Source: a bacterium
GTDB taxonomy: Bacteria; Patescibacteriota; Minisyncoccia; UBA6257; JAUSGH01
DNA: 37,108 nucleotides
Assembly (NCBI GenBank): GCA_030649055.1
Contig: JAUSGH010000014.1
Coordinates: 1-37,108, forward strand
Reading direction: 5' to 3'
The position numbers and the translations under genes are program-made. Under the pieces are notes generated by a model, which saw nothing but the letters and a program-made list of their open reading frames with translations, was not told where the DNA came from and ran no database searches. Shown in pieces: positions 27,007 to 37,108 of this stretch (positions are counted from its first letter, which is position 1; each line of letters starts with the position of its first letter).

Positions 27007-27078
27007 GCCCTCGTAGCTCAATGGATAGAGTACATGGCTTCGAACCATGGGATTGAGGTCCGATTCCTCACGAGGGCA
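27007..27078 (+). tRNA. tRNA-Arg (TCG)
   Basis: Acceptor GCCCTCG/CGAGGGC, D arm GCTCAATGGATAGAGT, anticodon stem CATGG/CCATG with loop CTTCGAA (anticodon TCG), T arm TGAGG-TCCGATT-CCTCA. Discriminator A is followed by CAA. Its 3' end is repeated 157 bp downstream and is built into a long hairpin. Confidence 0.96.
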
Positions 27079-27236
27079 CAACGAAAATAGTAATTCTATT
27101 TTCGTTGTGCCCGGAAGCGGACGGAAAGGGGGTCGGGGAAACGGGAGTTTCCCCGTGGCGGAGTACACGAACCGCTGGGTTCGTGAGCGCAGCCGACCGA
27201 AGGTCGTAGCGAGCAGTTCGACTCCCACGAGGGCAC
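27069..27236 (+). repeat. tRNA-Arg 3'-end duplication with 17-bp hairpin
   Basis: CACGAGGGCAC occurs at the tRNA 3' end (27069-27079) and again at 27226-27236, the second time after a T-loop-like TTCGACTCC. Between them a perfect 17-bp inverted repeat (27074-27090 and 27096-27112, loop TAATT) has a left arm that includes the acceptor strand. Further stems are GGGGAAAC/GTTTCCCC (about 27136-27154), CACGAACC/GGTTCGTG and GACC-GAA-GGTC. The core at 27132-27151 is shared with the tRNA-Leu(CAA) region. No gene is present, and the second copy ends 8 nt before the cca ATG. Confidence 0.8.
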
Positions 27237-33783: not shown

Positions 33784-35277
33784 ATGATCCACATTATTCA
33801 ACGAAGAAAAATTTTAACCGGAGTCGCGATCGTGGCAACATTATTTCAATTAATGCCGTTCGGCGCGTTCGCGCAGGTTGCGGGGATTAAAGCGTTGCCT
33901 TCGGTGCCGGTGCCAATGCCGGCAAGCGCGCCGGCGCCGGCTGATCATCCGGCGGTGCCTCAGCCCACCCCGTCATCCGGCGGCTCTGCTGCTCAACCGA
34001 CACCGCTTCCGACTGCCGGGTCCGGTGGCGCGGGAACTCCAATTGACAACGGGGGATTATGGGCCGGTTCGCCAATTGGCACCGCGCCGGCGAAGCCGTT
34101 ATATACGGTTGCGGCTGTGGTGCCAAAAGTGGCGTTAGATGCTATTGCAACACGTTCCACAATCGGCGCGGTTCGTTTTAAAGATATTTTGAGCATACAA
34201 GGTACTAGCATCGCTCAAGTTGTAGCGATGCGCGATGGTGCGGTCGTTAAATTTACATTTACTCCGGCGGGTGGTTCAAAGATTGTGAATGCGAATTTCC
34301 AACGATCGGGGTTTTCCGGATTTTTCAGTTCGCAATCTCCGTGCTCAATATTGGGTGACAGCGCGGTATGCGCGACAACCGGCCCAGGAAATGTTCATTT
34401 TGACGTTATGCCGACGAATAGTTTTGGGGATGTGGCGTATAACATAGCAAAAATTGATCCCAGAGATCTTGGCGATCTTACGACTCCGACAAGGGCATTC
34501 TATGATGAGTTGCTGAACGAGATTCATGGGGCGGGGTCCGGAGCCGAACAATTCGCCAAACTTCCCGATGGTACGGTTGTAAACATGATTGATGTTATTC
34601 TTGGCGAGAATCTCAAGGCCCCAAACACCGTGCTTTTGGAGGCGAAAAGCGAAATCGCTAACATCCTCGTACTGGCGCTCAAGAGAGAGAGAGAATGGGC
34701 GAAAATGTGTCTTGGTAGGGATTCAGCCGCGGCAAGAGGAAGCAATGATTCTAGTTGGCTGAGCGGGGATGTCTCAAGTATGGCTGATGGAATGACCGAA
34801 ACGCTTAAACAGGCGGGAAAAGAAAAATTATGCAGTGACGCGGAGAAAATTTCCGAGCAGATTGATGGATTTTTGAGCGCGCTTCAAAGTGGTCCGTTGG
34901 GTCTATTTACTTCCTGTAAGTTGGACTTCGCTCAGCTCATCGCCGCGGCACGGGCGGGTTACGCGGCACGGGGAGGTTCTGAGCTTGACCCCAATATTGA
35001 GGCGCTACTTGCCGGCATGCCTGCCGATGATGTGATGATGGTCGCGCAAAAAGCGGACGCGGACGCGGCGCAGATCCGAAAGCTCGCGAACTTGGTTGGG
35101 GCCGCGAAAAGCGTGGGGTCAACGGATGATAAATCCGAAAAAGAAAAGGAGGCACTCATCAATGACTTGCGCGCAAGGGGTTCGCAATATACGAGTGCGA
35201 AAAACGAACTTAACTCTTGGTACGAAGTGGGATATGAGTCGCCCAATGGAGCTGTATCCTCCGCTCGTTCTCGTTGA
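33784..35277 (+). CDS. Exported protein of unknown function
   Basis: 497 residues. The signal peptide is ILTGVAIVATLFQLMPFGAF with cleavage probably after AFA (residue 30). Next is a Pro/Ala/Ser-rich linker (MPASAPAPADHPAVPQPTP, to about residue 105). A beta-type domain about 110-220 follows (DILSIQGTSIAQVVAMRDGA, then FTFTPAGGSKIVNANF). The rest is a mostly helical C-terminal part with several cysteines (CLGRDS, LCSDAE, SCKLDF). I do not recognise a family. It follows the other exported protein directly and ends in a strong terminator. Possibly a surface or filament component, which is inference. Confidence 0.75.
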   Translation: MIHIIQRRKILTGVAIVATLFQLMPFGAFAQVAGIKALPSVPVPMPASAPAPADHPAVPQPTPSSGGSAAQPTPLPTAGSGGAGTPIDNGGLWAGSPIGTAPAKPLYTVAAVVPKVALDAIATRSTIGAVRFKDILSIQGTSIAQVVAMRDGAVVKFTFTPAGGSKIVNANFQRSGFSGFFSSQSPCSILGDSAVCATTGPGNVHFDVMPTNSFGDVAYNIAKIDPRDLGDLTTPTRAFYDELLNEIHGAGSGAEQFAKLPDGTVVNMIDVILGENLKAPNTVLLEAKSEIANILVLALKREREWAKMCLGRDSAAARGSNDSSWLSGDVSSMADGMTETLKQAGKEKLCSDAEKISEQIDGFLSALQSGPLGLFTSCKLDFAQLIAAARAGYAARGGSELDPNIEALLAGMPADDVMMVAQKADADAAQIRKLANLVGAAKSVGSTDDKSEKEKEALINDLRARGSQYTSAKNELNSWYEVGYESPNGAVSSARSR

Positions 35278-35313: not shown

Positions 35314-35756
35314 TGTATTATTGTGCCGCCGGTCGGAGAATCTCACTGCTCAGCCCCGCGTTGCGGGGCTTGCACTCTAAAACTCAGCGGTTTTAGTATT
35401 TCCGCAATGGTGAAACTCCCGTTTTCCCCGACTTCGTCGACCGAAGCCGACTACGACGGGCGGAGGCCGACCCCTTTCCGGTTCGACTCCCCGAGCACAA
35501 ACAAAAATCCGCGCTTTTGCGCGGACTTTTGTTTGTGCTCGGGGGGAGAGTCGGCTACAAGTAAATTTCCTGACGGAAATTTCTCGCAGCCCGGTGAATT
35601 ATTAAATAACAAATCCAAAAAGGTGCCGACAGGCCACCCCTCGCGGCGCTCGCCTTTCGCTTTCAGCGAAAACTCGCGCATCGCTGCGGTCTTCTCCTCC
35701 CCCCACGCAGGCCAAGCAGTTGGCCTGCTCCGCGTCAAATTCGCTTCGCTCATTTG
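35314..35756. repeat. Hairpin-rich non-coding region with tRNA 3'-end fragments beside tRNA-Leu(CAA)
   Basis: No gene is supported here. It contains AGCCCCGC/GCGGGGCT (about 35351-35369), CTAAAAC/GTTTTAG, and the core at 35412-35432 shared with the tRNA-Arg element. A 26-bp inverted repeat (35489-35514 and 35519-35544, one mismatch, loop TTTT) follows, then AAATTTCC/GGAAATTT (about 35562-35581) and AGGCCAA/TTGGCCT (about 35709-35726). A 22-bp exact direct repeat of the tRNA-Leu 3' end lies at 35532-35553 and 35753-35774. A T-loop-like TTCGACTCCCC on the plus strand (35482-35492) enters the long hairpin from the other side. Confidence 0.78.
35532..35553 (-). other. Duplicated 3' end of tRNA-Leu(CAA)
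   Basis: 22 bases identical to 35753-35774, which cover the acceptor 3' strand, T-stem and first flanking bases of tRNA-Leu(CAA). The copies are 221 bp apart in the same orientation, like the ends of an inserted element. Confidence 0.8.
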
Positions 35757-35839
35757 TGCTCGGGGGGAGAGTCGAACTCCCATGAGGTTACCCTCGCTGG
35801 TTCTTGAGACCAGTGCGTATGCCATTTCGCCACCCGAGC
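35757..35839 (-). tRNA. tRNA-Leu (CAA)
   Basis: Class II tRNA: acceptor GCTCGGG/CCCGAGC, D arm GCGAAATGGCATACGC, anticodon stem CTGGT/ACCAG with loop CTCAAGA (anticodon CAA), long variable arm, T arm GGGAG-TTCGACT-CTCCC. Discriminator A is followed by CAA, so CCA is not encoded. Confidence 0.95.
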
Positions 35840-35927
35840 ATTGTTTGGATGGGTTCTGCTTTTAGTTGATACTGCCATAAAATTGTGTCAGAGTAAAGAT
35901 GTTATGCCCCGTGCTACAACTTCGACG

Positions 35928-36197
35928 ATGCTCTTCTACGTCTATGTTTTGGAGAGCTTAAAAGATGGAAAGCGATATATTGGCTTCACAAACAATCTAC
36001 GGCGTCGGTTTGAAGAGCATCAAAAAGGACAGAGCTTCTCAACAAAATATCGACTACCTTTTAAACTTATTTATTTTGAAGCATGCACAAACAGGGATGA
36101 TGCGGTGCGTCGTGAAGAGTATTTCAAATCCACGGGAGGAAACAGATTTCTCGCAAAAAGGTTGAAGGTATATTATAAAGTTAAATCGAAGTTGTAG
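35928..36197 (+). CDS. GIY-YIG endonuclease-domain protein
   Basis: 89 residues from the ATG at 35928; a start at 35904 would add eight residues. One GIY-YIG domain: FYVYVLES (GIY position, 3-10) and RYIGFTNNLRRRFEEH (YIG at 17-19, catalytic Arg in the 25-27 run), then the acidic residue in RREEYFKSTGGN and a basic tail. This is the small UPF0213-like form, found in multiple copies in many bacteria. It should nick or cut branched or single DNA, but the biological role is not established. It diverges from tRNA-Leu(CAA) and lies 8 nt before parA. Confidence 0.88.
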   Translation: MLFYVYVLESLKDGKRYIGFTNNLRRRFEEHQKGQSFSTKYRLPFKLIYFEACTNRDDAVRREEYFKSTGGNRFLAKRLKVYYKVKSKL

Positions 36198-36205
36198 CAC
36201 AGGGT

Positions 36206-37108
36206 ATGGCTCGTGTCATCGCTGTTTGCAATCAAAAAGGTGGTGTTGGAAAAACAACCACGGCAGTTAATTTGGCGGCGTATTTGGCGTTGCTGGGTAA
36301 GAAGACGTTACTCATTGATTTTGACCCGCAGTCCAATGCGAGCTCGGCGTTGGGATTTGATAAAAAAAGCGATGCAGGCACGGTATATGACGGACTGCTT
36401 GGCAAAGTGCCTCCGGTAAAACTGGTGCAGGCGTCATCGGTGCCGAAACTTGATTTCATTCCCGCGCACCCCGATCTTGCGGGGGTCACGGTTGAGCTGC
36501 TGCAAAAACCGGAGCGTGAACGGTATCTGCATCGGTTGCTTGACCCGTTCCGGTATTTGTACCAGTACATTCTTATTGATCTTCCGCCGAGTGTTAGTTT
36601 GCTTACGGTGAACGGACTTGTCGCGGCCGACGAGGTGCTTATTCCCGTGCAGTGCGAATACTACGGCCTTGAGGGGTTGGGACAGCTTTTGGAAACCGTG
36701 GACCTCATCAACAAAAATCTTGGCCGTAATCTGAAGATCGCGGGTGCCTTGATTACCATGTACGACGCGCGGGAGCACTTGTCGCGCGAGGTTTCAAAGG
36801 AAGTGCGGAGAAAATTCGCCGGCCATGTGTACGGAGTTGAAATTCCGCGCGCGGTGGCGCTTGCCGAGGCGCCGAGTTTCGGAAAACCTATCGCGCTTTA
36901 CGCGCCGGAGTCCATCGGCGCCCGGGCGTATGAACGGCTGGCGCGGGAAATTGTGGCGCAAGAGGCCACGCAGAATATTGATCGCTTCCGTCAGGAGGTA
37001 AGGGTGCCGGTGCGGCTTGTGCAAAGTAGCGCGACGATTACCACACCCGTTGCATCACTTGCCATACTTCCGGAGCCGGTCGTGGCGAGCGCGCCGGCTG
37101 AGACAAGC
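36206..37108 (+). CDS. parA: ParA/Soj chromosome-partitioning ATPase (3' end cut by the window)
   Basis: The frame is open from the ATG at 36206 to the window end (301 codons). ARVIAVCNQKGGVGKTTTAV holds the deviant Walker A KGGVGKT (11-17). KTLLIDFDPQSNASSALGF is Walker A' and the following helix, and YILIDLPPSVSLLTVNGLVA holds the Walker B aspartate. It forms ATP-dependent dimers on DNA that move ParB-bound origins. parB usually follows and would be expected beyond the window, which would place this end near the replication origin (inference). A long Val/Pro/Ala-rich extension starts near residue 265, beyond the usual ParA length of about 250-260. Confidence 0.93.
   Translation, partial: MARVIAVCNQKGGVGKTTTAVNLAAYLALLGKKTLLIDFDPQSNASSALGFDKKSDAGTVYDGLLGKVPPVKLVQASSVPKLDFIPAHPDLAGVTVELLQKPERERYLHRLLDPFRYLYQYILIDLPPSVSLLTVNGLVAADEVLIPVQCEYYGLEGLGQLLETVDLINKNLGRNLKIAGALITMYDAREHLSREVSKEVRRKFAGHVYGVEIPRAVALAEAPSFGKPIALYAPESIGARAYERLAREIVAQEATQNIDRFRQEVRVPVRLVQSSATITTPVASLAILPEPVVASAPAETS

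Follow-up and report, generated by a model that had tools for sequence, protein, structure and literature searches.

Why is the 3' end of a tRNA-Leu(CAA) gene repeated, in direct orientation and a short distance away, across a piece of DNA that appears to encode nothing? This question was raised by a stretch of 37,108 nucleotides (contig JAUSGH010000014.1, assembly GCA_030649055.1, referred to below as the window) belonging to an 875-kb draft genome of a Patescibacteriota bacterium. An earlier note, based on the sequence alone, described two 22-bp copies of the tRNA end bounding a hairpin-rich element without any gene, along with a neighboring 26-bp inverted repeat carrying a second T-loop-like sequence, and proposed that a minimal non-coding element targeting tRNA genes might be one explanation. 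The observation proved to be correct on all these points, and the interpretation is supported by the comparisons with related genomes described below, although an attachment-site duplication in the sense used for integrases, which the note also suggested, has not been shown, no integrase having been linked to these elements. Genomes and loci in our survey are designated by G and L numbers, respectively.

Anatomy of the locus

Both 22-bp copies are exact, and no other direct repeat longer than 16 nt occurs between positions 35000 and 37108. Since the tRNA gene was placed by ARAGORN and Rfam on the minus strand, the inner copy consists of the last 19 nt of the tRNA plus 3 nt, and the same sequence is found again exactly 221 bp away. 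The two arms of the inverted repeat (35489-35514 and 35519-35544) are 96% complementary, and the second T-loop-like sequence is present at 35482-35492. No gene was found between the copies, and searches with Rfam at gathering and permissive thresholds returned only tRNAs and chance hits. The region folds with a z-score of -8.3 in comparison with shuffled sequences. Two features could not be seen from the window alone: the DNA outside the outer copy (35321-35504) is a copy of a second family of elements, unrelated in sequence, and the 199 bp between the copies contain a third, small repeat. The element described in the note was named family C, the second element family E, and the small repeat family D. 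The term T is used here for the gene-end copy, and T' for a short inverted copy of the same target located inside the element. The features are as follows.

35756-35839, minus strand: tRNA-Leu(CAA), the intact target gene
35753-35774: inner 22-bp direct repeat, the 3' end of the intact tRNA plus 3 nt (reconstituted gene end of element C)
35532-35553: outer 22-bp direct repeat, the displaced tRNA 3' end, cut inside the T-loop (...GAGTCG | GCTACAAG), which is also the right gene-end copy of element E
35554-35752: body of element C, non-coding
35554-35590: first stem-loop of C (GCTACAAG, inner hairpin AAATTTCCTGACGGAAATTT, CTCGCAGC)
35591-35633 (approximate limits): family D repeat inserted in this copy of C (CCGGTGAATT...AAAAAGGTGCC), absent from the C homologs listed
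35691-35704: T' of C, an imperfect inverted copy of the tRNA T-arm (CTTCTCCTCCCCCC against GTTCGACTCTCCCCCC)
35707-35728: hairpin GCAGGCCAA-gcag-TTGGCCTGC of C, between T' and the tRNA, a similar hairpin being present in most C homologs
35321-35346: displaced tRNA 3'-end-like copy at the outer end of element E (TTGTGCCGCCGGTCGGAGAATCTCAC), with the typical GAATCTCAC junction
35347-35479, plus strand: element E, comprising a variable stem-loop, the core (covariance model hit at 35373-35441) and a 40-nt expansion shared with L050, another copy in the same genome
35480-35504, plus strand: T' of E, an inverted copy of the tRNA T-arm, acceptor strand and trailer
35489-35544: 26-bp inverted repeat, a terminator-like hairpin joining T' of E to the next gene-end copy
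27007-27079, plus strand: tRNA-Arg(TCG), target of a second E copy in the window
27123-27189, minus strand: core of this second E copy, downstream of tRNA-Arg(TCG)
27107-27122, minus strand: T' of the second E copy (GTGCCCGGAAGCGGAC, inverted copy of the tRNA-Arg end)
27216-27235, plus strand: displaced 3'-end copy of tRNA-Arg beyond the second E (GTTCGACTCCCACGAGGGCA)
35904-36207, plus strand: small GIY-YIG nuclease ORF inside an inverted repeat, just upstream of a ParA-like gene, possibly an autonomous relative in style

The order of these features suggests that E entered first and left its displaced end at 35321-35346, and that C then entered the rebuilt tRNA end, leaving the 22-bp copy at 35532-35553. 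Family D has at least three further copies in this genome (L029, L030, and L031; CCGGTGAATT...AAATCCAAAAAGGTGCC), and in L031 the repeat lies between two copies of a tRNA-Val 3' end.

Two dispersed families inserted at gene ends

A DNA similarity search with positions 35553-35755 identified C-like sequences in 27 of 244 genomes of the order, which is a minimum estimate since it is based on DNA similarity alone. Nineteen further loci (L232-L250) were examined, including the 3' ends of tRNA-Arg, Gly, Tyr, Ser, Trp, Ala, Leu-GAG, and Leu-TAG and that of a tmRNA, and the arrangement is not fixed at tRNA-Leu(CAA). In most of these loci, the outer repeat ends at the same base of the T-loop (GATTCG | CCTACAAG outside, GATTCG | AACC in the tRNA). 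The consensus consists of a gene-end copy, a GCCTACAAG...CTCGCAGGC stem-loop, CCGCCCCTCGCGGTGCTCGCC...ACTCGCACATCGCTGCGG, a T' of the (C)TTCGAATCC type, a GC-rich hairpin and the intact gene end. Locus L241 apparently carries two tandem C copies at one tRNA-Leu(TAG), with a 67-bp direct repeat. The presence of an empty site with a single tRNA 3' end, which had been named beforehand as the proof of insertion, was established at tRNA-Ala(GGC): genome G127 carries the element, whereas G149, which belongs to the same genus, as well as G110 and G100, have the same tRNA-Arg/tRNA-Ala pair with one 3' end and no element.

A covariance model of the 68-nt core of family E detected 14 copies in this genome, and copies in 62 of 150 genomes of the order and in 29 of 379 genomes of a phylum-wide sample. 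The exact core was found in 47 contigs, the named ones being nearly all Patescibacteria (Liptonbacteria, Colwellbacteria, Harrisonbacteria, Moraniibacteriota, and other Parcubacteria-type genomes). One exact core lies at the end of a 5-kb contig labeled Polynucleobacter sp. (L203, SSFP01000018.1), which might be a mis-binned Patescibacteria contig. No exact core of either E or C was found in viral contigs. Of 83 distinct E loci, 70 lie beside a tRNA or tmRNA gene: 69 are downstream of its 3' end and antisense, covering 18 tRNA isotypes and tmRNA, and one is at the 5' end of tRNA-Leu. Family E is not restricted to RNA genes, and the protein-gene loci resolved by reading are in the ends of the EF-G, LepA, TypA, L11, RNase HI, and L33 genes, which were named from the encoded sequences; a LepA case recurs elsewhere in the phylum (L264). 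In L023, L051, L053, and L054, the first core hairpin is expanded by a long palindromic insert with ends GGACCCTATCGCAATTCTT, possibly another mobile repeat, and in L066, L074, L089, and L103, short hairpin inserts occur inside the displaced gene-end copies (for example GGG[CGCTGCGCT]ATCTCAC).

The two families share the same order of parts: displaced gene end, stem-loops, T', spacer, and a complete gene end running on into the gene. True flanks share a median of 15 nt in E and 19 nt in C, whereas the mismatched flanks of other loci never share more than 12-13 nt; direct repeats of 14 bp or more were present in 56 of 83 E loci against 0 of 83 controls, and the median of 19 bp in C compares with a control maximum of 12. 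In E, the 16 nt following the core match their own target with a median exact inverted run of 11 nt, against 6 nt for the targets of other loci, and none of 2000 permutations reached the observed mean. T' fits the functional copy better than the displaced copy in 76 of 83 loci (p about 1e-12), which led us to reject, in the case of E, the idea that T' was made by fold-back copying of the outer gene end. In C, T' often carries a GA-to-TC change and matches its target only partly. The T-T' helix of C was predicted by RNAalifold without being imposed, 4 of its 5 pairs show compensatory changes, and the signal was far lower when the pairing was slid by 1-3 columns, although this covariation test does not fully remove the effects of shared ancestry. 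No fixed PAM-like motif was seen by eye beside T' across the tRNA, EF-G, LepA, TypA, L11, RNase HI, and L33 targets.

In the case of RNase HI, four relatives have the recJ-RNase HI junction (recJ being named from its sequence) without the element and with a single gene start. At TypA, the outer copy has the upstream sequence shared with relatives, and at EF-G (L100), the outer copy follows the rpsG-like end, as read from the sequence, expected in the str operon. At L11, the two gene starts differ at 9 synonymous and 5 non-synonymous codons of 21, so that they are the starts of two functional lineages rather than a decaying duplicate, as expected for a hybrid gene end originating from another lineage. 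The displaced copy is altered next to the element, often from GAATCGAAC to GAATCTCAC. In RNase HI, TypA, and EF-G (L065), the only differences between the two copies are two changes near the junction, so the change seems to come with insertion or to be selected at once.

Among 1429 cells in the E helices, G-T pairs (8) and A-C mismatches (14) are both rare, whereas the tRNA acceptor stems of the same loci show 19 and 1, respectively. The helices lack the strand bias of an RNA, which argues against an RNA gene and favors pairing in DNA; this is suggestive but does not constitute proof.

Origin and possible mechanism

We interpret the feature, with moderate confidence, as a non-coding, non-autonomous mobile element of family C inserted into the T-loop end of tRNA-Leu(CAA) next to an insertion of family E, and both families as DNA-hairpin elements that replace gene ends, related in style to small GIY-YIG homing elements. 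The data establish that both families are dispersed and have been mobile in the past, that each insertion splits a conserved gene near one end, pushes the original end outward and leaves a complete gene end fused to the rest of the gene, that the DNA between the copies folds into stem-loops closed by a short T-T' helix, and that T' changes with the target; it is only by inference that we take the element to act as structured DNA rather than as an RNA gene, an enzyme supplied in trans to break or nick the conserved target, the element to be copied in by recombination as in gene-end-replacing homing elements, and T' to be the recognition arm pairing with T of an unoccupied gene.

The leading candidate source of such an enzyme is the small GIY-YIG homing-type elements present at the same kinds of site in these genomes. 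GIY-YIG ORFs were found beside the 3' end of tRNA-Gln (L164, L168, L169, L171, L173, and L175), after tmRNA (L167 and L174), and before RNase P RNA, recognized from its sequence, with an inverted copy of its 5' end (L178 and L182); often accompanied by a displaced gene-end copy, they are apparent free-standing homing elements. Several of the displaced ends read GTGAGATTCC or close to it, as at the E junction, and L167 shares 15 nt (GCGACGTGAGATTCC) with the outer end of E and carries an antisense T-arm copy at the E position. The ORF in the window (35904-36197, Pfam PF01541) lies within a 22-bp, 91% inverted repeat, the left arm of which is preceded by a sequence resembling the start of the adjacent ParA-like gene. 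The number of E copies correlates weakly with that of GIY-YIG hits (rho 0.27, p 0.0009), without any correction for phylogeny. However, no enzyme is linked to E or C, and several E-rich genomes have one GIY-YIG hit or none (G112: 10 E copies, one hit; G137: 5 E copies, none). In addition, since the occupied gene still carries an intact target, classical homing does not explain immunity to re-cutting, and the near identity of the two gene-end copies in RNase HI and TypA also fits an enzymatic target-site duplication.

Guided single-strand insertion is not excluded but seems unlikely on present evidence. In this view, T' would pair with the target strand, the nicked 3' end would prime the copying of the element, either as RNA by target-primed reverse transcription or as single-stranded DNA, and a staggered second nick would give the 15-65 bp gene-end duplication. 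The fact that T and T' flank a structured core like a spacer and primer-binding site, the target-matched T' and the gene-end duplications in RNase HI, TypA, and EF-G, identical apart from two changes at the junction, are consistent with this process. On the other hand, the presence of E was not associated with reverse transcriptase (p 0.41) or with Y1 transposase (p 0.34); 13 of 24 genomes with five or more E copies have no RVT_1 match, while the genome studied here has one RVT_1 match and no Y1 transposase, and no RNA-like G-U signature was observed. The 15-65 bp duplications also differ from the insertion without target duplication that characterizes IS200/IS605 and REP elements.

Movement in trans by a tyrosine recombinase, the direct repeats being ordinary att sites and T' part of the recombinase-binding inverted repeats, is more doubtful, although it remains possible. 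The direct repeats do bound the insert and run from inside the T-loop to about the tRNA 3' end, as with integrases that use tRNA genes, and one boundary is fixed to the base in most C copies. However, family E also enters the EF-G, LepA, TypA, L11, RNase HI, and L33 gene ends, which have unrelated sequences, T' follows the target, which recombinase-binding arms would not do, and no integrase gene lies in the elements, the C homologs being likewise only about 200 bp long. Host-useful regulatory or processing structures kept by selection at tRNA trailers (anti-tRNA hairpins or terminators) are very unlikely, since, although nearly all the elements lie at tRNA 3' ends, many include terminator-like hairpins and T' could pair with the T-arm of the precursor, there are empty sites in close relatives, different tRNAs are occupied in different genomes, protein genes are targeted, and tandem and nested insertions occur.

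Related systems and implications

The literature searches gave no description of E or C, although the open literature consulted is incomplete and a description might exist elsewhere. The mobile-ORF gene hybrids of fungal mitochondria (Allomyces atp6; Glomus atp6, atp9, cox2, and nad3; PMC3630166) similarly insert near the end of a conserved gene, displace the native end and fuse a replacement end, sometimes from another lineage, to the gene, but they carry an endonuclease ORF, whereas E and C carry none, hold a target-matched inverted arm and mostly use tRNA genes. Integrative elements at tRNA 3' ends also show a direct repeat of the tRNA end bounding the insert and a reconstituted gene; E and C, however, contain no integrase, measure only 130-200 bp and have a T' that follows each target, and E is also found in protein genes. 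The insertions in CPR rRNA genes, including GIY-YIG and short ORF-less ones (PMC11270868), occur in the same host phylum and in conserved target genes, with ORF-less forms beside endonuclease-bearing forms, but they lie inside rRNA, and we found no mention there of gene-end replacement or of a target-matched arm, nor the word tRNA in the main text. The double-hairpin elements of mitochondria and bacterial REP/MITE-type repeats are likewise short, non-coding DNA-hairpin repeats dispersed in a genome, but they are not known to rebuild gene ends or to carry a copy of each target. The layout of TIGR-Tas arrays is different.

A more far-reaching possibility, which we regard as tentative, is that E and C are a new kind of mobile element: a DNA- or RNA-guided, protein-free unit of 130-200 bp, the 10-14 nt arm T' of which would base-pair with any matching conserved gene end and direct insertion there by enzymes supplied in trans, the gene being rebuilt in the process. 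A target-matched arm directing insertion would also be a new route to programmable insertion, and it would pose the question as to how a non-coding element acquires an arm matching each new target. If the present interpretation is right, many tRNA genes and several core translation genes in Patescibacteria have been re-ended by elements of 130-200 bp with no protein, which would explain many of the unannotated repeats in these genomes and give a traceable marker of gene exchange between uncultured lineages.
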